Shown here piece after piece: positions 37,967 to 63,762 of a DNA stretch of 64,000 bases (positions are counted from its first letter, which is position 1; the number at the start of each line of letters is the position of its first letter). A model generated the notes under the pieces. It did not search any database. It saw only the letters and a program-made list of their open reading frames with translations, and was not told the DNA's origin. The stretch is from Fidelibacterota bacterium. GTDB lineage: Bacteria; Fidelibacterota; Marinisomatia; SCGC-AAA003-L08; TS1B11. Location: contig CP070638.1 of assembly GCA_020354025.1 (NCBI GenBank), forward strand, positions 1,921,403-1,985,402, in the 5' to 3' direction. A program made the position numbers and the translations under genes.

Positions 37967-37976
37967 GAACATCGCG

Positions 37977-40900
37977 ATGGGTAACAACCAGCCGTCATCC
38001 TTGCTTGATCGGATAATCAAGGCCTGTCTGGAGAACAAGCTAGTGGTGGGTCTGGCCTTGGCCGGCTTGGTGGGCTGGGGTATCATGGTAGCTCCCTTCG
38101 ACTGGCAGATTCCCGGTATCGCTAGAGACCCGGTGCCGGTGGACGCCATCCCTGATATCGGCGAAAATCAACAGATCGTCTTCACCGAGTGGATGGGCCG
38201 CTCGCCCCAGGACGTGGAAGACCAGATTACATATCCTCTCACGGTAGCGCTCCTGGGTGTCCCGGAAGTGAAGACAATCCGGTCCTACTCCTTTTTCGGC
38301 TTCTCTTCGGTCTATGTGATTTTCAATGAGGGGGCTGAGTTCTACTGGACCCGGAGCCGTATCCTAGAGAAGCTGAATGCGCTGCCCGCTGGCACCCTCC
38401 CGCAGGGAGTTCAGCCTACCCTAGGTCCAGATGCCACTGCCTTGGGACAGGTCTTCTGGTACACCCTTGAAGGCCGGGATGAACAGGGCTATCCCACTGG
38501 CGGCTGGGACCTGCACGAGTTGCGCTCCGTTCAGGATTGGCACGTCCGTTATGCCCTGATGTCCGCTGAGGGAGTAGCAGAGGTGGCCTCGGTGGGAGGT
38601 TACGTGCAGGAATACCAGATTGATGTTGATCCTGCCGCCATGCGGGAGCACGGCATCGGGCTCCATGATATTTTCAGTGCTGTCAGTGCTTCCAATGTCG
38701 ATGTAGGTGCCCGGACCATTGAAGTTAACAAAGTGGAGTACGTGATCAGGGGTCTGGGATTCATCGAGAATCTGGAGGATATCGAATTCACTGTTGTGAA
38801 AGCCAGAGAGAACGTGCCCATCTACGTCAAGGACGTAGCTAACGTAACCCTGGGGCCCGCCCTGCGCCGGGGAGCCCTGGACAAGGAAGGGGCCGAGGTG
38901 GTGGGTGGCGTGGTAGTAGTGCGCTATGGGGAGAATCCTCTGGCGACCATCAAGAACGTTAAGGATAAGATGAAGGAAATCAGCATCGGGCTACCCCATA
39001 AGATACTCGCTGATGGCCGCGAGTCTCAGGTTACCATCGTACCATTTTACGACCGCACCGGCCTGATTTACGAGACCTTGGGCACCCTCAATCACGCCCT
39101 GCGTGATGAGATCCTAATCACCATCATTGTTATACTGCTCATGGTGATGCATTTAAAAACTTCCCTGCTTATCACTTCTCTCCTGCCCCTGACGGTACTA
39201 ATGGTATTCATCGGCATGAAGGTCTTTGGAGTGGATGCCAACATTGTAGCCTTATCAGGCATCGCCATTGCCATTGGTACTATAGTGGACATGGGGATTG
39301 TGGTCTCGGAGAACATGCTAAAGCGTCTGGATGAGGCTGGCGATAGAGCTGATAAGTTGAATATCCTTTCTCAGGCGACTTCAGAAGTAGGCGGTGCTGT
39401 ATTGACCGCTGTAGCTACTACTGTCGTGAGCTTTTTGCCGGTGTTTGCCATGGAGGCGGCTGAGGGGAAACTTTTCAAACCGTTGGCCTATACCAAGACA
39501 TTTGCCCTCATTGCCTCGGTGATCATGGCATTAACCATATTACCGCCGATGGCCCATATCTTTTACGAAAAGCGCATCAAGAAGGAACAGCTGCGAAATG
39601 TCCTGTATGGCGGTCTCATTCCGGCCGGGATCGTCCTCATGTTCGTCTTATCCTGGTGGTTGGGTCTACTGGTAACCCTCGTAGGCGTATACCATTTTAC
39701 CAAGGGATGGTTACCTGCTGGATTCCTGGATCGCATTCCCGTGTGGGTCAACTGGCTGGCTATCGCCTTGTTGACGTTCATCCTGTCTGACACCTGGGCA
39801 CCGCTGGGTATTGATAAAGGAATATATAAGAATATTGTCCTGGTAGGATTGCTCCTGGTCCTGATAATGGGTGGCATCGTCCTTTTCACCCGCCAATATC
39901 CCAGAATGTTGCGATGGGCTTTGGACCACAAGGCATTGGCGTTAGCCGGTCCCGTTGCAGTAGTTCTCATTGGTCTAATGGCCTGGATCGGCTTTAACGG
40001 GATGTTCGGCTTCATGCCCGATTTTGTAAAGAAGTCCCGTCCCTACGCGGTCCTGCGCCACACCTTCCCTGGACTGGGCCGGGAGTTCATGCCCCCCCTT
40101 GATGAAGGCTCGTACCTCTACATGCCCACTACCATGCCCCACGCCAGCATCGGTGAGGCCTTGGATGTTTTGGCGAAGCTGGATAAGGCCCTATATTCGG
40201 TTCCCGAGGTGGAGCAGGTAGTCGGCAAGCTGGGCCGCGCCGATACGCCCCTTGATCCGGCACCCATCTCCATGATCGAAACCGTGGTGAATTATAAACC
40301 TGAGTATGTCGTCGACAAGGACGGCAACCACCTCACTTTCAGGGTGAATCGTGATGGCTATTTCCTCCGGGATGAGAATGGTGAGCTTATCCCCGATCCG
40401 GGTGGGCGGCCATATCGACAGTGGCGCGAGCACATCCGTACCGAACGGGACATCTGGGACGAACTGGTGAAGGTAGCACGGATTCCCGGCACGACTTCCG
40501 CTCCTAGGCTCCAGCCTATCGCTGCCAGGATCGTCATGCTTCAGAGTGGCATGCGGGCTCCAATGGGGATCAAGGTTAAAGGCCCTGATCTGGAAACCAT
40601 CGAGAAGGTGGGCCTTGAGCTGGAGCGCCTGCTCAAAGAAGTACCCAGCGTGGAACCCGCAGCAGTTATCGCTGATCGCATCGTAGGCAAACCCTACCTA
40701 GAAATCGATATAGACCGGCGGGCTATTGCCCGTTATGGTATCTCCCTGCGGCAGGTGCAGGATGTCATCGAGGTGGCTATCGGTGGCAGGACCATTACGA
40801 CTACAGTGGAAGGCCGGGAACGCTATCCGGTACGAGTGCGCTATATGCGGGAGCTGCGGGACAATATTGAATCCCTTGGCACTATCCTGGTTCCCACCCC

Positions 40901-41756
40901 TGACGGCACCCAGATTCCCATAGCTCAACTGGCTGAAATCCGGTATGTCCGAGGAGCTCAGGCTATCAAGAGTGAAGACACCTTCCTGGTGGGTTACGTC
41001 CTGTTCGACAAACGGGATGGCTGGGCTGAGGTGGACGTAGTAGAGCAAGCCCAACGATACCTAGGGGCCAAAATCGAAAGTGGCGAGTTGGTACTACCGG
41101 CGGGAGTCAGTTATTCCTTCGCAGGATCGTATGAGAATCAGGTTCGATCAGCACAACGGCTGCGAATTATTCTCCCGTTTGCCCTGTTCATCATCTTCAT
41201 AATCCTCTATTTCAAATTCCGACGGATTTCCACCACTCTGATTGTTTTCTCGGGCATCTTCGTGGCTTGGTCCGGGGGCTTTCTGATGCTGTGGCTATAT
41301 GGTCAAGACTGGTTCCTGAACTTCAGTCTCCTGGGAGCTAGCTTTCGGGATTTATTTCAGGTACACCCGATAAACCTGAGCGTGGCCGTATGGGTTGGTT
41401 TCCTGGCCTTGTTTGGCATCGCTAGTGATAACGGGGTTATCATCAGCACCTATCTGGACCAGATCTTTGCCCAGCAGCGGCCGGATTCCATCACCGCTAT
41501 CCGCGAGGCCACCGTCAAGGCTGGCGCCCGACGTATCCGCCCGGCCATGATGACTGTCAGCACTACCATCCTAGCCCTCCTTGTTATCCTCACTTCCACT
41601 GGGAGGGGCTCAGACATCATGGTGCCTATGGCTATTCCGTCATTCGGGGGTATGGTTTTGGCCATTGTCACGGTCTTTGTCGTGCCCATACTCTACGCCG
41701 CTAGCGCTGAGCAGAGAATGGTGAAAGAAACTCGATCAGTGAAGGACAAGAAGTAG
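37977..41756 (+). CDS. Heavy-metal efflux RND pump, CusA/CzcA family
   Basis: A 1259-residue inner-membrane pump, longer than the usual 1040 because of added membrane segments near residues 530-650 (LIPAGIVLMFVLSWWLGLLV and following). Family features are VDAIPDIGENQQIVFTEWMGRSPQDVEDQ at the N-terminus, AIAIGTIVDMGIVVSENMLKRL in the proton-relay helix, PPLDEGSYLYMPTTMP and ASDNGVIISTYLDQ. The pump uses proton flux to export Cu(I)/Ag(I) or divalent metals through the adaptor and TolC-like channel. The metal cannot be fixed, but the Cys/Met-rich first gene favours copper or silver. Confidence 0.95.
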   Translation: MGNNQPSSLLDRIIKACLENKLVVGLALAGLVGWGIMVAPFDWQIPGIARDPVPVDAIPDIGENQQIVFTEWMGRSPQDVEDQITYPLTVALLGVPEVKTIRSYSFFGFSSVYVIFNEGAEFYWTRSRILEKLNALPAGTLPQGVQPTLGPDATALGQVFWYTLEGRDEQGYPTGGWDLHELRSVQDWHVRYALMSAEGVAEVASVGGYVQEYQIDVDPAAMREHGIGLHDIFSAVSASNVDVGARTIEVNKVEYVIRGLGFIENLEDIEFTVVKARENVPIYVKDVANVTLGPALRRGALDKEGAEVVGGVVVVRYGENPLATIKNVKDKMKEISIGLPHKILADGRESQVTIVPFYDRTGLIYETLGTLNHALRDEILITIIVILLMVMHLKTSLLITSLLPLTVLMVFIGMKVFGVDANIVALSGIAIAIGTIVDMGIVVSENMLKRLDEAGDRADKLNILSQATSEVGGAVLTAVATTVVSFLPVFAMEAAEGKLFKPLAYTKTFALIASVIMALTILPPMAHIFYEKRIKKEQLRNVLYGGLIPAGIVLMFVLSWWLGLLVTLVGVYHFTKGWLPAGFLDRIPVWVNWLAIALLTFILSDTWAPLGIDKGIYKNIVLVGLLLVLIMGGIVLFTRQYPRMLRWALDHKALALAGPVAVVLIGLMAWIGFNGMFGFMPDFVKKSRPYAVLRHTFPGLGREFMPPLDEGSYLYMPTTMPHASIGEALDVLAKLDKALYSVPEVEQVVGKLGRADTPLDPAPISMIETVVNYKPEYVVDKDGNHLTFRVNRDGYFLRDENGELIPDPGGRPYRQWREHIRTERDIWDELVKVARIPGTTSAPRLQPIAARIVMLQSGMRAPMGIKVKGPDLETIEKVGLELERLLKEVPSVEPAAVIADRIVGKPYLEIDIDRRAIARYGISLRQVQDVIEVAIGGRTITTTVEGRERYPVRVRYMRELRDNIESLGTILVPTPDGTQIPIAQLAEIRYVRGAQAIKSEDTFLVGYVLFDKRDGWAEVDVVEQAQRYLGAKIESGELVLPAGVSYSFAGSYENQVRSAQRLRIILPFALFIIFIILYFKFRRISTTLIVFSGIFVAWSGGFLMLWLYGQDWFLNFSLLGASFRDLFQVHPINLSVAVWVGFLALFGIASDNGVIISTYLDQIFAQQRPDSITAIREATVKAGARRIRPAMMTVSTTILALLVILTSTGRGSDIMVPMAIPSFGGMVLAIVTVFVVPILYAASAEQRMVKETRSVKDKK

Positions 41757-42003: not shown

Positions 42004-42672
42004 CTACTGCTCCGAGATGTGATCAAAGATGAGGGTGCCTGCTAAGGCGAACAGGATAAAAAAGGTGACCATGAGCATCAGCCAGAGATCCCATTCTCTG
42101 AGCGGCCGCCCGGCCAGAGCGGCGCTGGTAGCCCTGGTGGCGGCAATCAGCAGGGGGGCCAGCAATGGAAACAGCAACACGGGCAGCAGGGTCTCACCGG
42201 CAGGGGAGCGTAGGTTCATACCGGCGATAAGGGTTCCCACGGCGGCAATGGCCAGGTCGGTGAGGACGATAATGAGAGCCAGGGAGGCGGGGGCCGCCAG
42301 CAGGGGCATATTCAGGAAGAGACCGAAAAGGGGCAGACTTATCATCTGGGTTGCCAGTAGAAAGAGGAAAAAGGCGGCAGCTTTTCCCAAGTAGATAGCA
42401 CCGCGGCTCACCGGTGCGCTCAGCAGCAGGGAATACGCGTCCAGTTCCTTTTCCCGTCCGAATGATCTGAGCAAACCCAACACCGCGGTGAAGAAGTAGG
42501 TCATCCACATCAAGCCCGGGATGAATGCCTGAAACCGGGCAGGGGCGGCGTTAACAGCGAAGGCAAAAAGCAGAGTGACCGCCGCGGCGAAGATCACCAT
42601 GGCCGACAGGCTTTCCCTGGTGCGTAGCTCTAGGCGCAAATCCTTGAGAAATATAGTCCAGGCAGTCGCCAT
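42004..42672 (-). CDS. ccmB: Heme exporter membrane subunit CcmB
   Basis: A 222-residue protein with six hydrophobic segments, typical of CcmB. Family landmarks are FLKDLRLELRTRESLSAMVIF, FGREKELDAYSLLLSAPVSRGAIYLGK and LPLFGLFLNMP. It works with CcmA in the CcmABCD complex that releases holo-CcmE during c-type cytochrome maturation. It starts with SD GAGGAG and overlaps ccmA by one base (TAATG). It is the last gene of the long minus-strand cytochrome run. Confidence 0.93.
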   Translation of the reverse strand: MATAWTIFLKDLRLELRTRESLSAMVIFAAAVTLLFAFAVNAAPARFQAFIPGLMWMTYFFTAVLGLLRSFGREKELDAYSLLLSAPVSRGAIYLGKAAAFFLFLLATQMISLPLFGLFLNMPLLAAPASLALIIVLTDLAIAAVGTLIAGMNLRSPAGETLLPVLLFPLLAPLLIAATRATSAALAGRPLREWDLWLMLMVTFFILFALAGTLIFDHISEQ

Positions 42673-43376
42673 TACTCCTCTTCGCTTATATACGAGACCA
42701 GATCACTCTCTGTCGACACCGGCGCTTCCCTGCTGATAGTGCCTCCACTGAGCAGGAGCGCCCGCTCAGCCCGGGCTGCTCCCCAGCCCAAATCGTGGCT
42801 GGTAAAGAACACCGTCCGTCCCTGCGAATGCCAGCGAGTGAGCGCATCACTGAGGGTTTGGGTTCCATCGACGTCCAGGGCGGCTGAAGGCTCGTCCAGC
42901 AGGGCCAGCCGCCATGAGGCCAGCTCCAGGCGGACCAGGCCCAGCCGCTGGAGCATCCCTTCGGAGTAGACCCGTATTGGTTCTTCCTCGCGGCCCGCCA
43001 GCCCGTAGCCGGAAAGGAGGGTCTGAAACGTTTCCTCATCCCATGTCTGCCCACGCAGCCGGACGCTGAGCATGAGATTTTCCCGGGCGGTGAAGGCGGG
43101 ATACAGGTTGGGCTGGTGCCCTAGATAGACTACGTCCCGTCGCCAACGGCTGTCAGCGGTAAATAGGATCGATCCGTTGAGGTAGGCGGTTCCCCTTTCG
43201 GGGCGCATAATACCGGCCAGGATTCGGAGTAGTGTGGTCTTGCCGCTGCCGTTGCGGCCGAAAAGCAGGACAGTCTCACCGGTAGCCAGGGAAAATGATA
43301 CGTCCTTCAATACCGGATGCAGGTGAAAAGATTTGTTGATATTTACTGCGGTGAAGAAGCTAGCCAAGTGATTCAA
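42672..43376 (-). CDS. ccmA: Heme exporter ATP-binding subunit CcmA
   Basis: A 234-residue ABC ATPase: Walker A GRNGSGKTTLLRILAG, Q-loop region YLGHQPNLYPAFTARENL, signature-like YSEGMLQRLGL, Walker B LALLDEPSAALD and H-loop FFTSHD. With CcmB it powers the release of heme-loaded CcmE. The first codon is probably TTG, three bases after the previous stop; no ATG is available nearby. Confidence 0.92.
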   Translation of the reverse strand: MNHLASFFTAVNINKSFHLHPVLKDVSFSLATGETVLLFGRNGSGKTTLLRILAGIMRPERGTAYLNGSILFTADSRWRRDVVYLGHQPNLYPAFTARENLMLSVRLRGQTWDEETFQTLLSGYGLAGREEEPIRVYSEGMLQRLGLVRLELASWRLALLDEPSAALDVDGTQTLSDALTRWHSQGRTVFFTSHDLGWGAARAERALLLSGGTISREAPVSTESDLVSYISEEE

Positions 43377-43379
43377 CGG

Positions 43380-43853
43380 TTAGTTCAGCAAACCCCGGCC
43401 GCAGCTGGCGCAGAAGCGGTCCCCGGACGATACCGTTGCACCGCAGCCGGGGCACACATCCCCAACCGCCGTGCCGCAATTGGAACAATACCTGGTACCC
43501 GGCACTATTGGTGCGCCACAGCTCGGACAATCAGAGATCGCCGTTCCATTTTCCGGCGGATTGTGGTTTCCGGGTACACTATCCAGTTCATGCATCACTT
43601 CCGCCACCTCCGCCAAAAGGTCTGTCTTTGTGCGATCAAAATCCTCTTCATTGATAAGGCCCATCTCCCGTTCGAATTCCGCTTCCCGTATTTGCTTGAA
43701 CAGGTTGACCTTGCGCAGCTCAAGCGCGATGGTTCGGTCGGCCTCGTCTTCGCTGACCGGTTTCTCCTTAACTGATAGGAGAGGCACCAGCACGTAGTAG
43801 GTGGCAAAGAGGAAAATCAGGAAAAGAGCCGCGGTAGCCAGCAGTGTATCCAT
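43380..43853 (-). CDS. CcmI-like membrane protein with double zinc ribbon
   Basis: A 157-residue protein: one membrane helix at the N-terminus (LLATAALFLIFLFATYYVLV), an alpha-helical region (ELRKVNLFKQIREAEFEREMGLINEEDF) like the N-terminal part of CcmI, and a C-terminal double zinc ribbon built of four CxxC pairs (CPSCGAPIVPGTRYCSNCG and CPGCGATVSSGDRFCASCG). CcmI holds apocytochrome during heme ligation. The zinc ribbons are not part of classical CcmI and may bind partners or metal. It lies between ccmH and ccmA, with 1- and 3-base gaps. Confidence 0.8.
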   Translation of the reverse strand: MDTLLATAALFLIFLFATYYVLVPLLSVKEKPVSEDEADRTIALELRKVNLFKQIREAEFEREMGLINEEDFDRTKTDLLAEVAEVMHELDSVPGNHNPPENGTAISDCPSCGAPIVPGTRYCSNCGTAVGDVCPGCGATVSSGDRFCASCGRGLLN

Positions 43854-43854
43854 T

Positions 43855-44337
43855 TCAGATGTCCAGATCCTGCATTTCTTTTTCGATCTTATCGATAAAT
43901 TCGTTGTCGTAGGACTTGCGTTCGGCAGGAGCGGATCGCTGAGCTGGAGTCTTACTGCGGCTGATGAAATATACCAGTAGCAGCCCGCCAGCTAGGAGAA
44001 TGGCCGGTGGCATGATGTATGCCAGGAGATTAAATCCCCGGGCTCGGGGGCGGGCAAGGATCCGCTCGCCGTACTGGTTGACAAATAGGTCAATGATTTC
44101 CTCTTTAGTCCTGCCCTCCGCCAGCAATCGGGCAATCCGGGCCTTCACCTGCCGAGCGGCCTCCGAGTCGTGATCACCAACGGTGCTTCCATAGCAGCAG
44201 GGAGCCATGATCTCATACTCCAGCTCCCGCTGCAGGGCATCTTTGCCTATTCCTTCCACTAATGGGGCAGATTGCCCTTCCTGACAGAATGCCATTACCG
44301 GCAGTATGAGTGATAATAGCAGGAAAATGCGAATCAC
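43855..44337 (-). CDS. ccmH: CcmH/NrfF-type cytochrome c maturation protein
   Basis: A 160-residue protein with a signal peptide, the CcmH domain, and a membrane helix at the C-terminal side (LLAYIMPPAILLAGGLLLVYF). In place of the usual LRCxxC thiol motif it has APCCYGSTVGDHDS, adjacent cysteines as in several non-proteobacterial CcmH proteins. The helical part is standard (KARIARLLAEGRTKEEIIDLFVNQYGERIL). It acts in reduction of apocytochrome CxxCH thiols and in ligation with CcmF. It starts at GTG, overlapping ccmF by four bases. Confidence 0.9.
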   Translation of the reverse strand: MIRIFLLLSLILPVMAFCQEGQSAPLVEGIGKDALQRELEYEIMAPCCYGSTVGDHDSEAARQVKARIARLLAEGRTKEEIIDLFVNQYGERILARPRARGFNLLAYIMPPAILLAGGLLLVYFISRSKTPAQRSAPAERKSYDNEFIDKIEKEMQDLDI

Positions 44338-46301
44338 GCCAGTCTCTCTTTCAGTCGTTGATCGGTGCGGCTAGGCCAGATAGCCACCAGAGTGCCGACC
44401 ACTATGATAATGCTCCCCAGCCAAACCATCTGTACCAGGGGATTGATCATGATTTTCAGCGCCACACTATTGTTCTCTCCGCCGATACCGCCAGCGATGG
44501 CGTACAGGTCCTGTAGCGGTCGGGAATGGATGGCTACTTCCGATTGGACCTGGCTGTCCTGCTCGATATAAATCCGCCTCTCGGGTCTTAAGATAGTCAC
44601 CGGCCGGTCATTCCGGCTTACTGAGAGGTCTACAATCCAAGCGCGATGGTTCGTTCGTTCCACTTCGTAATATCGGTCCAGCTTAAATACATATCCTTTG
44701 AGGTAAGTATTTTCTCCCGGTTTGAGGGCAAGCTCCTGTTCAGTGGAGAAGGCCTTGCCAGTAAAGCCTACGAACATGAAAAGAACACCCAGGTGAACGA
44801 TAGCCCCGCCGTATCGGCTGCGGTTCCGGTCAACCATGTTCCGGAAAGCCGTAAGGGTTGACTCGCCGCTGATCCTGCGTCTGGCGCGGATGCCACGGAA
44901 CAATTCGTTGATGATACCCGCGAACACAAAGGCTACCAGGCCAAGGGATAGCAGCGGGTAGATTTGCCGGAGGCCGAGGAGCATGCCACCAGCTGTTGCC
45001 ACAATAGCCGTTGCGACGGGTATGGTTAAATTGCGCTTCAATGTTCCCAAAGAGGTACGCCGCCAGGCCAGGAGAGGCCCTATGCCGACCATGAGCAGCA
45101 GCAGCAGCCCGATTGGGACGGTAGTGCGGTTGAAGTAGGGCGACCCCATGGTGATCTTCATACCTCGTACCGCTTCAGATAGGATGGGGAACATGGTACC
45201 CCATAGTACGGCTAGGGTAAGGGCTACGAAGATCATATTGTTAAATAAAAATCCGCTTTCACGGCTGGTAAACGATTCCAATCGATTCTGAGAAGTTAGC
45301 TCGTCCTTACGTAGGATTACTAGGATGGTGCATGATAAGATGATAAGTAAAACGAAACCGAAAAACCATATGCCCAGTTCGCTGGCGGCAAAGGCGTGCA
45401 CTGAGGAGAGTATACCGCTCCTAGTCAAGTACGTACCGAAGATGGTCAGGATGAACGTGGACATGATGAGGATCACGTTCCACAAGCGGAGCATGTTTTT
45501 CTTCTCCTGGATGCGCACCGAGTGGATATATGCAGTGCCGGTAAGCCAGGGCAGGATGGAGGCATTTTCCACCGGATCCCAGGCCCAGTAGCCGCCCCAA
45601 CCCAGCTCCGCATAGGCCCAAATACCGCCCAGGACGATACCTATCCCCAGGAACATCCAGGGCAGAAGGCTCCAGCGGCGGGTTAAACGGATCCAGTTGG
45701 CATCCATGTGCCTTGTAACCAGCGCCGCGATAGCATACGCAAACGGCACCACAAAGCCTACATAGCCCAGATAGAGTATCGGCGGATGAATTAGCATTAC
45801 AGGATGCTGTAGCAGGGGATTGAGACCCATCCCGCGGCTGGAGGCCCCTGGAGGCAAGAGTGTGAAGGGATTCTCAAAAAAATTGGTGACGATCAGGAAA
45901 AAGAGCATCACTGTCGCGAACACCAGGTTCACTACCAGCATGAGGGAGAGGTTACGGCGACGATTAAGGTAGCCAATCAGGAGGACGTAGATCCCCAGGA
46001 TAGTGAGCCAGAATAGCAGGGAGCCTTCCATACCGGCCCACAGACCAGCAAATTTATACATGGTTGGGGTAGCGGCGCTGCTATAGCGGGCTACATATTC
46101 CAGGCTGAAGTTGCTTGCCATGAGCTGATGAACCAGAGCAAGGGTGGCCACCAGGATCAGGAACGCTGAGACCATCAGTCCCCGTCGGCTCACAAGGGAA
46201 AATCGCAGGTCGCGCTTGACCAGATTAATAAAGCCCGAAACCAGCGCCAAGCTGCAGAAAATCAGGGCCAGTTGCAGGGAAGTTGAACCCAGGAGAATCA
46301 T
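44334..46301 (-). CDS. ccmF: Cytochrome c heme lyase subunit CcmF
   Basis: A 655-residue, multi-helix membrane protein of normal CcmF length. The tryptophan-rich heme-handling motif WGGYWAWDPVENASILPWLTGTAY is intact, and conserved neighbours GLNPLLQHPVMLIHPPILYLGYVG and FGTYLTRSGILSSVHAFA are present, with the heme-ligand histidines in these. It carries heme from CcmE to the CxxCH sites. It overlaps ccmH by four bases and lies nine bases after ccmE. Confidence 0.96.
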   Translation of the reverse strand: MILLGSTSLQLALIFCSLALVSGFINLVKRDLRFSLVSRRGLMVSAFLILVATLALVHQLMASNFSLEYVARYSSAATPTMYKFAGLWAGMEGSLLFWLTILGIYVLLIGYLNRRRNLSLMLVVNLVFATVMLFFLIVTNFFENPFTLLPPGASSRGMGLNPLLQHPVMLIHPPILYLGYVGFVVPFAYAIAALVTRHMDANWIRLTRRWSLLPWMFLGIGIVLGGIWAYAELGWGGYWAWDPVENASILPWLTGTAYIHSVRIQEKKNMLRLWNVILIMSTFILTIFGTYLTRSGILSSVHAFAASELGIWFFGFVLLIILSCTILVILRKDELTSQNRLESFTSRESGFLFNNMIFVALTLAVLWGTMFPILSEAVRGMKITMGSPYFNRTTVPIGLLLLLMVGIGPLLAWRRTSLGTLKRNLTIPVATAIVATAGGMLLGLRQIYPLLSLGLVAFVFAGIINELFRGIRARRRISGESTLTAFRNMVDRNRSRYGGAIVHLGVLFMFVGFTGKAFSTEQELALKPGENTYLKGYVFKLDRYYEVERTNHRAWIVDLSVSRNDRPVTILRPERRIYIEQDSQVQSEVAIHSRPLQDLYAIAGGIGGENNSVALKIMINPLVQMVWLGSIIIVVGTLVAIWPSRTDQRLKERLA

Positions 46302-48817: not shown

Positions 48818-51436
48818 TTAACTGCTGAAAAAGGTTCCAAATATAATGAATATCAACAACAAAAAGCCAATGGATAGGAATACATACGCGCAGATGAGCA
48901 GGATGTATTTTGTCCATCTGGGCAACGGCTTGACTTTCAAGTTATTGTATTCGTTACCAGTAACAAGGCGTTCCTTCTCAATCGGACGCTCTTCGGCAAA
49001 CCTCTCTTCCGAGAGATAGCCGGTGAAGATGACTTCATCCATAGGAAATGCTCCCGGGCGGAGGTGAGTATTGAAGAAATGAACGGTAAAAATGAACGCC
49101 GTCGCCAGCAAGGCCTCCTCAGAGTGGATTATGTGGGCGGCGTTGATGATCCAGCCCGGGAAAAGCCGGGTGAATGTCTCGGGGAACCAGAGCGTCAGGC
49201 CGCTGGAACCGATGATGACCATACCCCAGACCACGGCGAAGTAGTCGAATTTCTCCCAGTAGGTCCAGCGATCAAACTTCGGCGGTTTCCTGCGCAGGCC
49301 AATGAAGTAGCCCAGGTGCAGGAAGAAGTCCTTAAAGTCCTGGAGATTGGGGACCAGCGATTTGGGACCGTAGAACAGTCCTCTCTCCTTGCGTCCGAGC
49401 CAGCGGTACAGGAGGACAATCAGGTGAATTACGAAGATACTGGCCAGCGTCACAGCGGCGATCCGGTGCAGGATAGCAGCGGTCCCAAGACTGATGAGAT
49501 TATTGACGAACCAGGTGGCCATAGGCGTATGGCTGTATTTCAACGGCAGGCCGGTCGTAGCCAATGTGCCAAAAGACAGGAGTAATCCTAGATGGAATAG
49601 CCTTTGATACGGTTTAAATCGCTTCACCCGATAGGCGGTCTTCACCTTGGGTTGTTTTTTCCCTTCGAAAATGCGCCGTACTAGCAGACGGATCAGCCAT
49701 AGGGTTGTATGGGCGCCGAAAATAGCTAGCGTAACACCCAGCAGCCAGCGCATGAAGGTGTCGATACCTTGTAGGATGGGATTTTCCTTGTGGGCCATCG
49801 GGCTGAAGTGCTGGAGGTAGGAAACGAAATTGATATTCACATCCTCATGACAACGGCCGCACGTTTTCAGGATATTCTCCTCGCTGACGGTGGAGCTCTG
49901 GTCGGAGACGGAGAGCACACTATGGTTATCGTGGCATGAAGCGCAGGTGGCGAACTCTGATCCCTGGTAGCCCAGCTGGTAAACTTGGCCATGGTAGGTG
50001 CTCTGATAGCCGGAGACCACATCCGGATTGAGCTGGAACCGCAGGATGATTTCCCGGTTGCTATGACAGGAGCTGCACAGCTCAACACTGGCTTTCCCCA
50101 TCATACTCTCTTCCGTCTTGGGGATGAGCCGCTCGCCGTGGCAGGTGATGCAGGTGGGGGCCTCTGCGTGTCCCTTGGCGGAGCTGATGCCGTGTACCGA
50201 TTGTTCCCAGGCTTCCTGCTCACCAGGATGGCACTCACCGCAAGCCCGCTTTAGCCCATTAGCCGCCGGGTGCTCCGGTGCCCGATAATGGTACTCGTGA
50301 CACTGGCCGCAGTTAACCGGTTCCCCTGATCTAGCTTGCTCGATTTTTTCTTGGTGAATCACCATATGGGCTTCAGCTGGATCAGCGAGCAATTCCTCCT
50401 CATGGCATAAAAGACACACGTTCGCCAGCCCGGTTTCGAAAATAGATGAGTGTGCGGTGGTCATGTCCGTAGAATGGCCCACATGGCAAGCTACGCAGGT
50501 TTCCAGGCGCGGATCGTCACCCTCTTGTGGGCGGTGAATCGAGACCTCGTAGCCCACATGGCAGCGAGTACAGGTCAGGTCCAGTCTGGCTACCGATACA
50601 AGGCTGTTGGGATCTCTGGGTGACAGCACCCGGTGTTTGGCGTGGCAGTCGGAGCAGACAGGGGCTCTCAGATTGCCCTGTTCGAGCTCCCGGAAGTGCT
50701 GGGAGTCTGTATAGTTGGCCACTTCCTGTTCATGGCATAAGTTGCACGATTCCACCAGATGCATCTTCCACTGCTGGGGCGTGTACTGATCCTTCTCCAT
50801 CTTGAAGTGAGGATGGTGGCAGGAAACACAGGTGACCTCTTGGGTAATATCGCCGACTTTCCAGTGACGGGATGCCAGGAAGTCTTCCAGTATATCCTGA
50901 TGGCACACACCGCACACCTGTCGGGGGTGCCCTTCCCAGGAAACCTGGTGGCGTCCATGACAATCGGAACAGCTGGGGATGGAGGTATATCCCTTCTCCA
51001 TAAGGGGCGCAAAGAAGCCTTCGATGAAGATGGCCTGTTCCTCCTCATGACAGGTACCACAGTCCGGCAGAACCAGGCGTTCCCGATGAGGCCATTCTTC
51101 CACTCCTTCAAGTTCAGTATGGCAGTCGATGCAGGCGAAATCTTCATGCGGGCTGCCCTCCAGATGCTCGCTGGTAACATATAGCGACAGCTCCACGCCA
51201 TAGCGGATCACATTGTGGTCGGGATCGTCATGGCAGGTTTCGCAGGTCTCGTTGTCCTGAGCCCAGGTGTTGTCAGGCCAGAGGCCGGTCAACAAAACGG
51301 TAATTAAAGCGGACCAGATGAAGATCCTGGAGTGACGGGCAATACTGCCCGGTGTGTGGGCTGCACGGCTGGAAGATAAGGCAGCAGGATTAGTTGTTGA
51401 GCTGCTGAGGTCACCTTTAAGGGTTGGCGACAACAT
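48818..51436 (-). CDS. 17-heme cytochrome c fused to b-type cytochrome membrane domain
   Basis: A protein of about 872 residues, starting at ATG 51436 (the GTG one codon upstream is possible). An N-terminal membrane segment (IFIWSALITVLLTGLW) is followed by seventeen CxxCH sites up to about residue 540. A b-type membrane domain then follows (LFHLGLLLSFGTLATTGLPLKY, AILHRIAAVTLASIFVIHLIVLLYR, HFFNTHLRPGAFPM) with histidines placed for two b hemes. It is a longer paralogue of the next gene, and the pair may act as alternative or serial quinol-linked cytochromes. Confidence 0.92.
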   Translation of the reverse strand: MLSPTLKGDLSSSTTNPAALSSSRAAHTPGSIARHSRIFIWSALITVLLTGLWPDNTWAQDNETCETCHDDPDHNVIRYGVELSLYVTSEHLEGSPHEDFACIDCHTELEGVEEWPHRERLVLPDCGTCHEEEQAIFIEGFFAPLMEKGYTSIPSCSDCHGRHQVSWEGHPRQVCGVCHQDILEDFLASRHWKVGDITQEVTCVSCHHPHFKMEKDQYTPQQWKMHLVESCNLCHEQEVANYTDSQHFRELEQGNLRAPVCSDCHAKHRVLSPRDPNSLVSVARLDLTCTRCHVGYEVSIHRPQEGDDPRLETCVACHVGHSTDMTTAHSSIFETGLANVCLLCHEEELLADPAEAHMVIHQEKIEQARSGEPVNCGQCHEYHYRAPEHPAANGLKRACGECHPGEQEAWEQSVHGISSAKGHAEAPTCITCHGERLIPKTEESMMGKASVELCSSCHSNREIILRFQLNPDVVSGYQSTYHGQVYQLGYQGSEFATCASCHDNHSVLSVSDQSSTVSEENILKTCGRCHEDVNINFVSYLQHFSPMAHKENPILQGIDTFMRWLLGVTLAIFGAHTTLWLIRLLVRRIFEGKKQPKVKTAYRVKRFKPYQRLFHLGLLLSFGTLATTGLPLKYSHTPMATWFVNNLISLGTAAILHRIAAVTLASIFVIHLIVLLYRWLGRKERGLFYGPKSLVPNLQDFKDFFLHLGYFIGLRRKPPKFDRWTYWEKFDYFAVVWGMVIIGSSGLTLWFPETFTRLFPGWIINAAHIIHSEEALLATAFIFTVHFFNTHLRPGAFPMDEVIFTGYLSEERFAEERPIEKERLVTGNEYNNLKVKPLPRWTKYILLICAYVFLSIGFLLLIFIIFGTFFSS

Positions 51437-51486: not shown

Positions 51487-52479
51487 TCATGGATAATCGG
51501 CCCGGCCGTTGATATGTTTTTGGGTGTCGATGATACTCAGGTGATCCTCTCCAGCGACCGAAGTATGGCAGTCCCCACAAGCGGACAGCTGCAGATGCCC
51601 AGTGGGTGGGTAGCTGTGACAGGTGGCGCACCGGTTCTCCGCTGTAAGAGTGTCAGTCCAGGTAACAGTCTGGTTATTCCCTACGATGAGGCTGTCGGCA
51701 TAAATCCAGATATTGCTGCTGGTAGCTTTCTCGAACCGGAAATTTCCGTGACAGTACGAATTTGAGCAGGTGGCGCTATTACGGTCCCAGCTCAATGTGA
51801 AGGTGCTATCAGCTGTGGTGGGGATTCCGAAAGGTACTTCCGCGTACGGTGTTTCGTCGATATGCCCCTCTGCCCAGACGGAATCTGGGATCAAATGGCA
51901 AGAAGCGCAGTCAATATTGACGGTCAAACTGTCGGGATGGGTATAGTGGCTGGTATGGGTGCCTACTGTCACCAGATCAGTGCCGGTCTGGTTTCTCACG
52001 TCGATAAAGGAATCGTTAGCTTGGGTATTATGACAGTTATCGCAGGCGAAAATACCTCCAGAAGCGGTATGGCAGGCAGTGTTACTGCAGGCAGACTCTA
52101 CAACGCCGCCTTCCAAGTTCTGGCCGTGGCAAGCCTGGCAGCTGGAGAAATCCCAGTTATTCAGCCAGAAGATGCGTCCGTGGTAGTTATCATGGCTTGG
52201 ATCGATGTATTCCGCCAGCGGGGGATGGGGGATAGCTCCACCATCGCTATGGCATTCACTGCATGCCACTCCTGATGTACCACCGCTGAATTTTTCTCCA
52301 TGGCACTGGACACAGCCAGATAATCCCACAGCACGTATCTTGTCGCCGTGGAATGCATCACTGGGATCGTCCCATTTATCGGGATGAACCTTTCCCCCTT
52401 CGGCCACTTCGGTGCAGCTCCACCAGCCAAAAACCAGACACGCGGCCAGACCGCCGAGTAGGAACCGTTTAGAAAACAT
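51487..52479 (-). CDS. 9-heme cytochrome with CxxCH and CX4CH motifs, likely lipoprotein
   Basis: A 330-residue protein whose signal ends at WWSC, a possible lipobox. Seven CxxCH and two CX4CH sites (CSNTACH and CSNSYCH) are present. The mixed pattern, plus GxLSGCVQCHG and the DNCHNTQAN region, matches the CxxxxCH/CxxCH cytochrome family of Geobacter-type bacteria, which includes extracellular electron-transfer proteins. Its start overlaps the 12-heme gene by 11 bases. Confidence 0.9.
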   Translation of the reverse strand: MFSKRFLLGGLAACLVFGWWSCTEVAEGGKVHPDKWDDPSDAFHGDKIRAVGLSGCVQCHGEKFSGGTSGVACSECHSDGGAIPHPPLAEYIDPSHDNYHGRIFWLNNWDFSSCQACHGQNLEGGVVESACSNTACHTASGGIFACDNCHNTQANDSFIDVRNQTGTDLVTVGTHTSHYTHPDSLTVNIDCASCHLIPDSVWAEGHIDETPYAEVPFGIPTTADSTFTLSWDRNSATCSNSYCHGNFRFEKATSSNIWIYADSLIVGNNQTVTWTDTLTAENRCATCHSYPPTGHLQLSACGDCHTSVAGEDHLSIIDTQKHINGRADYP

Positions 52480-53377
52480 GGCACCCAGCCCTCGTACAGG
52501 TCACGTCCGTGGCCGGTTCGTGGCAGACCACACAATAATCAGGAAGGTCTTCGGCCTCATCATGATGATAGCCGCCATCATCCCTCGTGATTGCCCAGCC
52601 AGGGCTGTTGTGGTTCAGAGGCATAATTAACAAAGACTGATGACAGGTGCGGCAATCCTCGGGCATCGCGTGGCAGGTGCTGCACTCTTTCTCGAAGCCG
52701 ATAAATTCCCCGGCGTGTAAGAACTCGTAATTGGCGGGATGGACCTTCTTTTCCAGCTGCGTCTGGGCATGGCAGGACTCACAGTCAGCTTGCTGATGGC
52801 ACATAGAGCACTCGCTATCGCTTCCTCTTTGGGTGAACAATCCATGAACCTCAGGCCAGTCCGGGTCATGGCTGGTGGGCAGCTTCTCTTTCAGGGAAGC
52901 GTGGCAGGTATAGCAGCCGGCATCGGTGAGGGGCACAGCGTGGCAGTCCATGCAGGATTCCATCTCCGGCGGTGTCCGTGGCACCAGGGCTTCGCTACCG
53001 GCCGTGGTGGCATGACACCGCTCGCATAATATATCTTCCGTTAGGTGGATCTGATGTGGGAACACCAAGTCGGGTGTGGTCTGCCAGGTATAGGTAGTTG
53101 GCTGATCGGGTTGGGTATGGCAGGCGGAACACTCCTGCGTTGCTGTATCATCATCATGGCAGGCGAAGCACTGGTCCATGACCGGCAGCAAGTCGTGGCT
53201 TACTTGTGTGCTCGTTTCCAAACCTTCATGGCACTCGTTGCACTCAAGACCCATATCATCAACATGGGCCAGATGGGAGAAAATGATGCGGTCAGTGGCG
53301 TCAGTTCCGATGCTCTGAGCGACCAGGTAACCTGCAGAGACCAGGAGGGCTACGATTATGAGGCTACTATAGCGCAT
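52469..53377 (-). CDS. 12-heme periplasmic cytochrome c
   Basis: A 302-residue protein with a signal peptide (SLIIVALLVSAGYLVAQ) and twelve heme sites, eleven CxxCH and a final CTRAGCH. About one heme per 23 residues is dense, typical of electron-wire cytochromes such as MtrA/OmcA types. Histidine-rich spacing (FSHLAHVDD, FPHQIHLTE, LHAGEF) supplies distal ligands. It begins 11 bases inside the barrel gene, so it is co-translated with that gene, consistent with insertion into the barrel as in MtrA-MtrB. Confidence 0.9.
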   Translation of the reverse strand: MRYSSLIIVALLVSAGYLVAQSIGTDATDRIIFSHLAHVDDMGLECNECHEGLETSTQVSHDLLPVMDQCFACHDDDTATQECSACHTQPDQPTTYTWQTTPDLVFPHQIHLTEDILCERCHATTAGSEALVPRTPPEMESCMDCHAVPLTDAGCYTCHASLKEKLPTSHDPDWPEVHGLFTQRGSDSECSMCHQQADCESCHAQTQLEKKVHPANYEFLHAGEFIGFEKECSTCHAMPEDCRTCHQSLLIMPLNHNSPGWAITRDDGGYHHDEAEDLPDYCVVCHEPATDVTCTRAGCHVF

Positions 53378-54608
53378 AGCTCACCTGCAATCCGACCCTG
53401 CCGTCCTGTTTGAAATACCGGTTCTGGGCATATTGGCCAAAAAGGCGATAGCTCCAATGACATCCCAAGGTTCCTTGGACCCAGAAAGACGCCATCAGTG
53501 CCGACAGGTCTTCCTTAGTAATCCCCAGATCCGACACCGCCTGGGATTGCTCATCATACAGGGCGTATGTATTGGCTCCAAGGCTGAGTCCTACTCTGGT
53601 TCTTTTGAATAGCGTATGTTGCCCACTCAACAGTAGATACTGACTCCCGTAGATGGACTGTGCTCGGGATTGCCAGGCTACGGCTAGCCTGCCCCAGGCA
53701 AGCCGGGCGGAGATATAGTGGCCCGAACGCTTTCCCAGCCGCTGTACGAGATTCAGACGGAGTTGTATGGTACTTATGACCCGGACGTTCAAGCCCGCGG
53801 CGAGGGCGTGACGCGGGTCCGGTAGCTCGTCAGCCATAGGGTAGGCGATTATAGTCAGATGCTGGGAATACCGGTATTGGACATGGGTGCTGACTTTCGG
53901 TGTTAGTCTTATCTGGGTTCGGAGCCGGATTTTGTCAATTGATGGGTGTAACAGGCCCAAGGCCAAATCGGCTATTTGGATGATGCGCCGTCCGAAACGT
54001 CTTCGCAAGGTACTGCCGATATATAATCTGCGCTCGCCACCCATTTCATTGGTCCACAACTGGAGCGACGTGTGGGATGGACCTGCCATGCGCCGGTACA
54101 GACCACCGGCCACTACTGTTCCGGCGTCACCGTAATCCGTGCCAAGCTCGTTCTGGGGCGTTACGCCGGCATACAGGGTGATCAGTCGTTGATCGCTGAA
54201 GGACCCTTTCCGCCGGTTCAGGGTGAGCCCGTCAAACCTGGTCGTGTGGAGCGCGTCCCACTGGATCTGCCGGCCGATGATTGTTTTCCAAGTGGGATTC
54301 AGTCGGATCTGTACGCGACCCGAATAGAGGTGCGGGCCAGCGGGACGGATCATAGTGGTGGGCATAACATCCCCAAGCATATACCAGCTCAGCCGTTCAC
54401 TGAGATGATGGCGTATGGTAAACTGCCCCCGCCAGACTAGGGTTTCAGCTGCGGTCAGATCGCTGCGTGGGTAAACCAGGCCGCTCTGAAGGACCACCGT
54501 CGGTCGGTTGGCTTTGACACTGGAACCTGCAAGAAGTAGCCAGATCAGGAACACCGCGATGGAGCGTGATGCGATTAAGTAAGTTCTATATTGTGGATGT
54601 CCTGCCAT
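53367..54608 (-). CDS. Probable outer-membrane beta-barrel (porin of the cytochrome conduit)
   Basis: A 413-residue protein with a signal-like N-terminus (SIAVFLIWLLLAGSSVKA), no CxxCH, and an alternating, amphipathic pattern with aromatic girdles (WYMLGDVMPTT, HYISARLAWGRLAVAWQSRA, THVQYRYSQHL). It ends in VGLQVSYAL, a strand with terminal Leu, as outer-membrane barrels have. It leads the cytochrome genes and overlaps the 12-heme gene. No sequence family can be named; the role as an MtrB-like sheath is inferred from topology and position. The start codon lacks an SD. Confidence 0.75.
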   Translation of the reverse strand: MAGHPQYRTYLIASRSIAVFLIWLLLAGSSVKANRPTVVLQSGLVYPRSDLTAAETLVWRGQFTIRHHLSERLSWYMLGDVMPTTMIRPAGPHLYSGRVQIRLNPTWKTIIGRQIQWDALHTTRFDGLTLNRRKGSFSDQRLITLYAGVTPQNELGTDYGDAGTVVAGGLYRRMAGPSHTSLQLWTNEMGGERRLYIGSTLRRRFGRRIIQIADLALGLLHPSIDKIRLRTQIRLTPKVSTHVQYRYSQHLTIIAYPMADELPDPRHALAAGLNVRVISTIQLRLNLVQRLGKRSGHYISARLAWGRLAVAWQSRAQSIYGSQYLLLSGQHTLFKRTRVGLSLGANTYALYDEQSQAVSDLGITKEDLSALMASFWVQGTLGCHWSYRLFGQYAQNRYFKQDGRVGLQVSYAL

Positions 54609-55023
54609 AAAGGAGAGGAAAGTTAAATATATCAGGACAACGAACTCAAATTTATTTATTGCTTGGAGTAAGCAAACTCTGCCGGTCTTGGGAGAGGGGA
54701 CATGGGGCTATGCCTTGTAATCGGATATCCGAGTTTAAGTCCATTCAGCCAACAACTATCTGAATCCCCAAATACTTCAATTCTTCTCTGAAGTTTACCT
54801 GCTGATATGGTGCCACCAGTATGATACCTTGAAATGAGACTTAAATGTCTTGTTAGCTATTGAAAAATCGATTAGCTTAAATGATAATTTACTTCCCGGT
54901 GTGGCAGGATAGAATCTTTCGTTGGCTGAGCCTTCTGTCATTAGGGGTAACCATTCTCTATAGCATAGCTCCTTTAAAACGGTTCGGGAAATATTAAGTA
55001 AAATCATTTATTGGGAGATGAAA
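54609..55023. promoter_or_regulatory. Divergent intergenic region of the cytochrome locus
   Basis: About 400 bases separate the two divergent cytochrome runs and must hold both promoters. AT-rich tracts (54850-54900) would suit promoter elements, but I could not fix -35/-10 pairs or an operator. No supported gene is present. Confidence 0.4.
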
Positions 55024-55641
55024 ATGTTTAGGGTGCTTACAATATTGCTGGTATTCTCCTGCTCGGTGCTCTTTGCGCAACAGGACGAATTTTCCTATAT
55101 GGGCGTCAATAACTGCAAGATGTGCCATAATAAAAAGGATAAAGGTGCCCAATTCAATGTCTGGAGTGAGGGTCCCCATGCCAGGGCCTTTGAAACCCTC
55201 AAGAGCGAGGAAGCCCTTAAGATCGCCACTGAACTGAAGCTAGAGGGATCGCCTCACGAAGCCGGGGAATGTCTAGGGTGCCACACCACTGGATGGGGCA
55301 AAGCCGACGGTTATGAGGTGTTGAGTGCGGATTTTATTGGTAATCCCAAGAATGCCAGAGCGGTAAAAAAGAATGATTCCAAGGCCAATGTTGGCTGCGA
55401 GACCTGCCACGGTCCCGGAAGTGGGTACAAATCCAAGAAAACCATGAATGGGATTTTTAACGGTGCAATCGATCCCGCGACCGTTGGACTATTTGCTCCT
55501 GAGAAGAACGTCTGCATAACGTGCCATAACGAAAAAAGCCCGACTTTTAAGAAATTTGACTTCGATGCTATGGCAGCCAAGATTGCCCATCCGTACCCTG
55601 AGGAGTTCAAGGCCACGAAAGGAACTCCTGGGGGAAAGTAA
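55024..55641 (+). CDS. Tetraheme cytochrome c, c554-like
   Basis: A 205-residue protein with a signal peptide (LTILLVFSCSVLFAQ) and four CxxCH sites (CKMCH, CLGCH, CETCH, CITCH). The layout NNCKMCHNKKDKGAQFNVW, GSPHEAGECLGCHTTGWG and NVGCETCHGPGSGY is that of cytochrome c554-like proteins. I chose ATG 55024 because GGGAG lies six bases before it; ATG 55018 would abut the SD. It probably serves as a mobile periplasmic carrier. Confidence 0.92.
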   Translation: MFRVLTILLVFSCSVLFAQQDEFSYMGVNNCKMCHNKKDKGAQFNVWSEGPHARAFETLKSEEALKIATELKLEGSPHEAGECLGCHTTGWGKADGYEVLSADFIGNPKNARAVKKNDSKANVGCETCHGPGSGYKSKKTMNGIFNGAIDPATVGLFAPEKNVCITCHNEKSPTFKKFDFDAMAAKIAHPYPEEFKATKGTPGGK

Positions 55642-61710: not shown

Positions 61711-63762
61711 CTACTTCATGACAAGCATTTTCCGCATCGCCGAAAATTCATTGACACGAATCCTATAGAAGTAAACTCCCGACGCCAAACGACGCGCATC
61801 AAGCGCCACGCTATGCTTCCCTGCGGCCAGGGATTGATCGATAATCCGCATGACCTCTCTGCCGAGGGTGTTATAGACAATCAGGGTAACATCTCCAGCC
61901 GCTTTCAAACTGAAGTTGATGGTCGTGGTTGGGTTGAAGGGATTGGGATAGTTCTGTGCCAGGGTATATTCCAGAGGCACAATCTCTTCATCGCCATCAA
62001 TTGACAAAGTACCCCTCAGGGCAGCGATGCTCGTCTTCAGGGTCGCTACGGTGAAGGCAGGGTTATGAATACCAAAGCTGTGATCATGGTAGACCATCTG
62101 ATAGTTGAAGGCAGACTGCAGCTGCAGGGTGGTCCAGGTTGAATCCACGGGATCATGGGCGTCATAACCGGCGACGGTATCTGCATGGGGTAGCAGCGCC
62201 GCCAACGTATCCAATAGTCCGTGGACCTCGTCCTGCAATCCTTCCGCAACGCCATCACCGTCATGATCGGTAACTCCGCTTAGATAGAAGGGTTTATCAG
62301 CAAAACTGTCTCCGACGTCTCCATGGCATGGAGCACAGGTAACGACGTTGTCCACCGTGTCCGATGACATGCTGAATGTATGTGATCCCATCATGATGAC
62401 GTTGTCATCTTCATCCGCGTGGCCAGGGTACATGTGGCAGTCTACACAGGCATTTTCGGTAGCTGCCAAGTGCGGAGAGGTCGGGAGAACCTGGCCGAAT
62501 GTGATCACGTTGGTGGCCATCAACATATCGGCCTGGGGAGCATAATGCGGACCGAAGTGGGTTGAATTCACGGGAGCCGTTGTGTATTCTATTACGTCGT
62601 CCCGGCGCTGATGATGGCAGTTCATACATAGTGCCCCGCTGCCTGCCCCAGTAACGGTCTCCCCGCTGGCCAGGGTAGCAGAGACGGTACGTAGCTGGTG
62701 TTCGTTGGTGTCATCATGGGGCTCATGGCAAACGGCGCAGGTGATATCAGTAGTAGGCTGTGATGTTATAGTCTCACCCTTCACGAATTGGATGAACTGG
62801 TTACCACTATGGCAGCCCTCGCAGTTCGTGCGCGCTCCCCCTGGATAGCTAGGTACATGCGCATGCCCGGAGGCATCCCACTGCTCGGGATAGACGTGAT
62901 GCGTGCCGCTGTCATGGCAAATAGCGCAACCATCAGTTGAGAGAGAAGATGCCTTTTGATGAGTACTCTGAGGCCCATGACAGCTCTCGCACTGGATGCG
63001 GGCCAGTTTCATTGAGTTGGGGAAGAATATTAGCAGCGAATCGTAGACGCCATCAAACAGATGCCCACCACTTACATCGCCGTAAACATCCACCAGGGTC
63101 GTTGAATCCGGGAATACGAAGGTGGTATCCTTACTCAGGTAAGCCACTGTCTGAATTCGATCATCGAAACCATCGTTATCAGCATTGGCGTCATAGCCTG
63201 TTGTGTGGCAGGAAATACAAGTCGGCCCATAGTGGCTGCTGGCAATACCATTCATGCCATCCTCAAAGATCGAATAATGCCCTGTCTCTTCCCAGTCAGC
63301 TGTTGCGCTGGCATGACAGGTGGCACAATTTCCAGCAGCAATGCCGACATAAGTCCCGGCAGTGACAATCAGCGTATCACTGACGGATTCATCAGTGAAT
63401 ACAATGGTGTAGGTGCCGGCGGAATCCGGGATGAAGGAAACGACTTCAGAAGCTGAATCAATAGCAGCAGCCGCACTGACATCTGCAGTTGAGCCGGTGG
63501 GACCGGTTACGTCCCAGGAGGTACTTACCAGCGTCGAATCTTTAGATCCCTTGAAATACATTTTGGTTTCAACACCGACATTGAGCAAACCATCGTACGC
63601 GCGGTCTAAGATCCCAAGGTATGTACGAGGCGCTGGGACACCCACGGTGTCGGCTTCGACATCGCGTGGGGATACACCGAAAGGTTCCAATACCAGTTCC
63701 TGGGAAGCAGCTACTGATATAGAGCAGCAAAGTACAAAACCAAGCAATATCACTCTCTTCAT
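61711..63762 (-). CDS. 9-heme extracellular cytochrome with T9SS sorting domain
   Basis: A 683-residue protein with signal peptide (VILLGFVLCCSISVAAS), an Ig-like module at residues 60-135 (VSTSWDVTGPTGS, SFIPDSAGTYTIVFTDE), nine CxxCH sites between residues 145 and 480, and a C-terminal type IX sorting domain containing AQNYPNPFNPTTTINF and GVYFYRIRVNEFSA. Heme-bearing parts resemble cytochrome c families of multiheme carriers, while the sorting domain predicts secretion through the outer membrane and attachment outside. SD AAGGAG is present upstream. It is convergent to the redox operon and likely the outermost member of the path. Confidence 0.93.
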   Translation of the reverse strand: MKRVILLGFVLCCSISVAASQELVLEPFGVSPRDVEADTVGVPAPRTYLGILDRAYDGLLNVGVETKMYFKGSKDSTLVSTSWDVTGPTGSTADVSAAAAIDSASEVVSFIPDSAGTYTIVFTDESVSDTLIVTAGTYVGIAAGNCATCHASATADWEETGHYSIFEDGMNGIASSHYGPTCISCHTTGYDANADNDGFDDRIQTVAYLSKDTTFVFPDSTTLVDVYGDVSGGHLFDGVYDSLLIFFPNSMKLARIQCESCHGPQSTHQKASSLSTDGCAICHDSGTHHVYPEQWDASGHAHVPSYPGGARTNCEGCHSGNQFIQFVKGETITSQPTTDITCAVCHEPHDDTNEHQLRTVSATLASGETVTGAGSGALCMNCHHQRRDDVIEYTTAPVNSTHFGPHYAPQADMLMATNVITFGQVLPTSPHLAATENACVDCHMYPGHADEDDNVIMMGSHTFSMSSDTVDNVVTCAPCHGDVGDSFADKPFYLSGVTDHDGDGVAEGLQDEVHGLLDTLAALLPHADTVAGYDAHDPVDSTWTTLQLQSAFNYQMVYHDHSFGIHNPAFTVATLKTSIAALRGTLSIDGDEEIVPLEYTLAQNYPNPFNPTTTINFSLKAAGDVTLIVYNTLGREVMRIIDQSLAAGKHSVALDARRLASGVYFYRIRVNEFSAMRKMLVMK

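Follow-up and report, generated by a model that had tools for sequence, protein, structure and literature searches.

Organization of the locus

The window, i.e., the whole stretch of 64,000 nucleotides analysed here, belongs to the genome of a Fidelibacterota bacterium (G000; 3.40 Mb, single contig). Near its end, on the minus strand, lies a gene for a nonaheme cytochrome that carries a type IX secretion system (T9SS) sorting domain. The features of this gene and of the cytochrome genes beside it are the following (numbers beginning with L designate loci where homologues of this nonaheme were found in other genomes).

42007..43208, minus strand: CcmB and an ABC ATPase fragment (CcmA-like); PF03379 90 bits, PF00005 43 bits
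44337..46301, minus strand: CcmF heme lyase of cytochrome c maturation system I; PF16327 219 bits, PF01578 135 bits
46856..48814, minus strand: 11-CxxCH cytochrome with a cytochrome b561 membrane domain
48821..51436, minus strand: 17-CxxCH cytochrome with a cytochrome b561 membrane domain
51490..52479, minus strand: 7-CxxCH conduit partner with a lipobox-like N-terminus (FGWWSC); TIGR01904; homologues beside nonahemes in nine other loci
52472..53377, minus strand: 11-CxxCH periplasmic-type conduit cytochrome; homologues beside nonahemes in L061, L067, L080, L122, L124, L125 and L134
53370..54608, minus strand: putative outer-membrane porin of the conduit, 413 residues, no hemes; suggested by its position between conduit cytochromes and by mostly strand prediction
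55018..55638, plus strand: tetraheme c554-like protein; PF13435; homologues in L067, L081, L102, L122, L124 and L134
55728..57626, plus strand: 17-CxxCH cytochrome with a NapC/NirT N-terminus, candidate for the quinol side; PF03264; homologues at 33% in L122 and L124
57696..58469, plus strand: 8-CxxCH membrane-anchored cytochrome; 46% homologue in L112
58469..59218, plus strand: 4Fe-4S protein; PF13247; 56% homologue in L112
59218..60426, plus strand: NrfD-like quinol dehydrogenase membrane subunit; PF03916; 69% homologue in L112
61711..63762, minus strand: nonaheme OcwA-like cytochrome with a T9SS type A sorting domain, 683 residues
63703..63762, minus strand: its Sec signal peptide, residues 1-20, of the signal-peptidase-I type, no lipobox (inspection and lipobox scan; helix 2-19 in the model)
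63352..63591, minus strand: its Ig-like beta domain, residues ~58-137 (AlphaFold strands 61-136, pLDDT about 92-97)
62008..63351, minus strand: its nonaheme core, residues ~138-585, with all nine CxxCH, closing in a helix bundle
61714..61962, minus strand: its T9SS type A C-terminal sorting domain (CTD), residues ~601-683; TIGR04183 and PF18962; beta sandwich in the model

The cytochrome c maturation genes (42007-46301) adjoin the cytochrome island. Farther out, positions 34515-41753 of the window hold three genes which, by eye, we take to resemble a TolC/adaptor/RND efflux set.

A nonaheme cytochrome ending in a sorting domain

The nine CxxCH motifs start at residues 146, 182, 258, 279, 314, 342, 379, 439 and 476. 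In 20,000 shuffles of the 683-residue protein, such motifs occurred 0.03 times on average and never more than twice. The tail (~80 residues), which contains the motifs NYPNPFNPTTT (residues 604-614) and GVYFYRI (662-668), scores 46.1 bits against TIGR04183 (cut-off 23) and 40.6 bits against PF18962 (cut-off 27). Thus, the nine heme sites and the C-terminal sorting domain that the first-pass annotation had reported for this gene are both confirmed, on the minus strand and with a tail above both curated cut-offs. Since core and tail are both kept in homologues, their presence is not due to chance. By inspection, the signal peptide reads MKRVILLGFVLCCSISVAA-SQE. No paralogue of the nonaheme was found in its own genome.

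The AlphaFold model of the full-length protein, built with 30 homologues (mean pLDDT 84.4), predicts successively the signal helix, the Ig-like domain, the heme core leading into the helix bundle, a disordered linker and the beta-sandwich tail. Among its Foldseek matches is the C-terminal domain of T. forsythia mirolase (8qb1; E=9e-3, TM-score 0.60 by target).

The heme core and the OcwA family

We compared the profile of the core with the PDB, where its best match is OcwA of Thermincola potens (6i5b, E=5e-23), followed by OmhA (6qvm), NrfA, octaheme nitrite reductase and MccA. The stretches aligned with 6i5b span residues 14 to 500 of its 526-residue chain. The profile made from relatives that have no CTD gives OcwA again as best match (E=1e-39), with OmhA next. 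At the level of the full-length model, OmhA is the only Foldseek match below 1e-3 (E=1.2e-6), with a modest TM-score of 0.32, and OcwA is absent from the top 50 matches. Judged on these profiles, the core is a member of the OcwA family and not MtrC/OmcA-like.

OcwA acts at the cell surface as a terminal Fe(III) reductase with nine hemes, of which hemes 1-4 are arranged as in cytochrome c554 and hemes 5-9 as in NrfA; its hemes 2 and 5 are open, each with a His-His pair beside it (PMC6703420). The window cytochrome shares with it the nine CxxCH, homology over both halves of the core (c554-like and NrfA-like), a G(I/V)HN segment at the end of the C-terminal helices and, at the level of sequence, the His-His pair of the heme-2 pocket (H288-H289). 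On the other hand, the pair of heme 5 aligns with H402-F403, i.e., HH has become HF; our protein has additional N-terminal Ig-like and C-terminal T9SS domains, and OcwA comes from a Gram-positive host that has no outer membrane to cross. Outside the CxxCH motifs, nine histidines (162, 268, 289, 300, 349, 406, 431, 461 and 566) are each conserved in 29 or more of the 31 CTD-type proteins. They would provide one histidine per heme, and their matching to particular hemes can be proposed provisionally.

OmhA of Carboxydothermus ferrireducens, the best full-length fold match and the second-best profile match, is likewise a surface cytochrome of extracellular electron transfer (EET), but it is an undecaheme (11 hemes) of the S-layer of a monoderm, without a sorting domain (PMC7829351). 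MtrC/OmcA of Shewanella also are surface multiheme cytochromes standing beside a porin-cytochrome conduit, and the PF22113 model matches the window protein too; however, their export goes through type II secretion and their N-terminal cysteine is acylated (PMC7096707). Membership of their family was rejected (TIGR03507, 18.1 bits against a cut-off of 209.3). The matches to the UshA-like (NF041198) and DmsE (TIGR03508) models are far under cut-off and reflect common heme spacing only.

The type IX secretion machinery of the host

The first-pass annotation had proposed that the cytochrome leaves the cell by the T9SS, a claim that depends on the core genes of this system. These are present: we detected SprA (708 bits summed over segments, in a frame of 2183 codons), PorU (629 bits) and nine proteins of the PorV family above cut-off, and the export route proposed earlier accordingly has its SprA, PorU and PorV components in the same genome. 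The genome also encodes 73 sorting domains, mostly on large open frames. We looked for CxxCH in the stretches around the CTD matches of 72 of these 73 proteins (one with an internal stop was left out, and seven frames contained masked stretches), and the cytochrome at 61711-63762 is the only one to have any. As only one of 72 has CxxCH, the combination of CTD and hemes is not a by-product of common heme motifs in the cargo.

The motor is another matter. The GldL/PorL and GldM/PorM models found no match in the host genome, a search that a strongly diverged motor would escape, and likewise none in the further CTD-nonaheme genomes searched (18 for GldM and 6 for GldL). In the Bacteroidota-group controls, 15 of 61 genomes matched GldM, and five of the five re-tested among these matched GldL. 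By these searches, the host machine appears to be made of SprA, PorU and PorV without a recognisable PorL/PorM motor.

SprA and PorV are the binding partners of type A domains; the cargo exits CTD-first with PorV and can then be either released or attached (PMC10994853). A review of T9SS effectors confines the system and its CTD cargo to Bacteroidota, and cytochromes do not figure in it (PMC10202324). The window cytochrome has the usual features of type A cargo, i.e., the PF18962/TIGR04183 domain, an SPI-type signal peptide and SprA, PorU and PorV in the genome; it differs by being a multiheme cargo and by the lack of a PorL/PorM match.

Distribution of the sorting domain and of the lipid anchor

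A scan of GTDB genomes for nonaheme cores yielded 79 loci. In the host's own phylum (Neomarinimicrobiota), nine nonahemes, including that of the window, bear the sorting domain, while more distant relatives within the phylum (9, 6 or 5 CxxCH) end after the core and have a lipoprotein-like start. The association of nonaheme and sorting domain is found in Neomarinimicrobiota, Ignavibacteria (among them the cultured Stygiobacter electus, with its gene at L069:9515-11659), Bacteroidota MAGs, KSB1, Calditrichota, Latescibacterota and Glassbacteria. Nonahemes without sorting domain are found in Chloroflexi, Planctomycetes, Acidobacteria, Myxococcota, Sumerlaeota and Verrucomicrobia. The comparison with other T9SS-tagged cytochromes, which had been suggested when the gene was first noticed, shows that nonaheme plus CTD recurs across FCB lineages and is not peculiar to the host genome.

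The Pfam sorting domain is detected in 29 of 31 CTD-type homologues and in none of 32 others. On the contrary, a lipobox is predicted in 12 of the 32 proteins without CTD and in none of the 31 with it (p=1.4e-4, shared ancestry being uncorrected). In this set of 31 CTD-type and 32 other homologues, lipid anchor and sorting domain therefore never coincide. SprA follows the same division, with 26 of 27 CTD-type genomes against 2 of 23 others (p=8e-11, confounded with phylogeny); the sole CTD-type genome without SprA is the MAG of L097. On a tree of 82 cores, the CTD label needs four changes, indicating that the sorting domain was gained or lost several times.

The probable conduit in the neighbourhood

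We also found that the neighbours of the window nonaheme recur beside its relatives, whichever their anchor. Homologues of both the 7- and the 11-heme proteins accompany CTD-type nonahemes in L061, L067 and L080 (the 7-heme protein also in L072 and L133), and both accompany lipoprotein-type nonahemes in L122, L124, L125 and L134. The lipoprotein-type locus L112 carries the module of 8-heme, FeS and NrfD proteins at 46-69% identity. Moreover, the density of other multiheme genes near nonahemes is 1.1 per 10 kb, while a sample of 318 kb from other parts of the host genome contained none. This density, together with the presence of conduit homologues next to both anchor types, is our strongest reason to consider that the nonaheme is wired to the conduit. 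The same occurrence of conduit homologues with both anchor types suggests to us that the sorting domain takes the place of the lipid anchor.

The barrel is the least certain element of this conduit. The window barrel has no similarity detectable by hhalign with the barrels of the related loci, which form two groups matching each other at 99%. Its model, made from five sequences, is strand-rich with a pLDDT of 35, i.e., of very low confidence, and we assign 53370..54608 to a barrel only weakly. Taken together, sequence, distribution and gene neighbourhood agree with, and support, a predicted T9SS display of the cytochrome beside a conduit.

Proposed function and alternative explanations

We propose, with a probability of roughly 0.7, that the gene encodes a heme-loaded terminal reductase of the OcwA type, exported by the T9SS to the cell surface, beside a porin-cytochrome conduit. 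The nonaheme would cross the inner membrane by Sec; the Ccm system would then load its nine hemes in the periplasm, where the cytochrome would fold. CcmF-type heme attachment is periplasmic, so that the nine hemes should precede outer-membrane transit and the cargo should cross in a folded state. The C-terminal domain would deliver the folded cytochrome to the SprA/PorV translocon, and PorU would cleave the sorting domain off. Once at the surface, the cytochrome may exchange electrons with insoluble or large acceptors. Its own supply would most likely come from the neighbouring porin-cytochrome set (barrel, 11-heme and 7-heme proteins), and this set would in turn draw on quinol via the NapC- and NrfD-type modules.

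In a quite different reading, the sorting domain is vestigial or acts otherwise, leaving the cytochrome periplasmic, or the T9SS of the host is idle for want of a motor. The failure to detect PorL and PorM speaks for it. However, SprA, PorU and PorV are intact and the genome keeps 73 sorting domains, mostly on large open frames; the motor models match nothing in the further CTD-nonaheme genomes searched either, yet these have kept SprA and CTDs; and the CTD, itself strongly conserved, never occurs together with a lipobox. We thus regard this reading as very unlikely. Export could also end in release: because release is one of the two fates of type A cargo, the other being attachment (PMC10994853), and PorU is present, the cytochrome might diffuse freely, as a shuttle or a component of the extracellular matrix, rather than act as a cell-anchored reductase. 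We hold this to be improbable, given that the relatives without CTD are lipoproteins in several lineages, which argues for a cell-attached role.

A last alternative accepts surface export by the T9SS and changes the substrate. The core lies in the fold family of NrfA, MccA and octaheme nitrite reductase, OcwA also reduces nitrite and hydroxylamine (PMC6703420), and the His-His pair of its heme-2 pocket is kept (H288-H289), so that the protein might be an enzyme for hydroxylamine or a soluble nitrogen or sulfur oxyanion, and not a mineral or electrode reductase. Against this, the heme-5 pair is HF in the window cytochrome, the nitrite turnover of OcwA is slow (1 per minute, PMC6703420), the neighbours are conduit cytochromes and not nitrogen or sulfur enzymes, and surface export would be needless for a soluble substrate. 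Such an enzyme seems unlikely to us, and the surface terminal reductase remains the reading that we prefer.

A more general proposition goes beyond this locus, and we put it forward tentatively, with the odds slightly against it: in FCB bacteria outside the classical Bacteroidota, heme-loaded OcwA-type reductases and at least some other multiheme cytochromes would be placed at the surface by a T9SS devoid of PorL/PorM, sorting tag and lipid anchor being exchangeable modules of one ancient nonaheme reductase.

Relation to previous work and implications

The surface cytochromes of Shewanella are delivered by type II secretion and held by an N-terminal lipid anchor (PMC7096707). A 2021 study placed OcwA among nonahemes of Gram-negative bacteria, and the accessible part of this paper mentions neither the T9SS nor any sorting route (PMC7829351). 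We found no description of multiheme cytochromes linked to the T9SS in the literature searched, which covers neither preprints nor the majority of subscription journals. As far as titles and counts show, the publications where type IX secretion occurs together with cytochromes and EET make only passing use of these terms, and cytochrome sorting is not mentioned in the papers on Melioribacter roseus and Caldithrix abyssi. What appears new here, as far as sequences can tell, is an OcwA-family core placed under a T9SS tag that replaces the lipid anchor of other relatives.

These results point to a second, largely undescribed route for placing heme wires outside the cell. If this is true, EET in Ignavibacteria, Neomarinimicrobiota, KSB1 and others would rely on a delivery route unlike that of Shewanella, and cytochrome screens blind to sorting domains would misplace such proteins, for which the combination of multiheme motifs and sorting domain could serve as a simple genomic marker of surface location. 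The OcwA-type family would also tie the terminal reductases of monoderms to those of diderms. Moreover, a T9SS without PorL/PorM raises the question of its power source. Stygiobacter electus, which is cultured and bears the gene, opens the T9SS reading to testing.

Further tagged cytochromes and variants among the relatives

The nonaheme is not the only heme protein with a sorting domain in these loci. In L061 (7556-10555) and L072 (13335-16415), a protein of ~1000 residues that adjoins the nonaheme combines seven CxxCH, a heme domain of the ethylbenzene-dehydrogenase type (PF09459) and a T9SS sorting domain. Other proteins with 7-9 CxxCH and T9SS sorting domains stand beside the nonahemes of L063, L064, L066, L101, L104, L113 and L124. 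These additional CTD-tagged proteins with 7-9 CxxCH indicate that the T9SS tag is carried by more than one cytochrome family.

Several variants were observed among the nonahemes themselves. The nonaheme genes of L038 and L062 have identical starts, as do those of L039 and L065, and the first heme site of L039 is CAGFCH (CxxxCH) instead of CxxCH. The lipoprotein nonahemes of L122, L123, L124, L125, L126, L127 and L134 have a collagen-like CEGxQGPxGPxGP run starting from the lipidated cysteine. In L098 and L107 (Sumerlaeota), the nonaheme core lies inside single ORFs of about 1340 residues with 16 CxxCH. Finally, the nonahemes of L074, L076, L082, L083, L084 and L086 (mostly Verrucomicrobia) have in common an extension of ~150 residues past the core, with an end like QQFYRVxxTP, which is possibly another sorting or surface domain.
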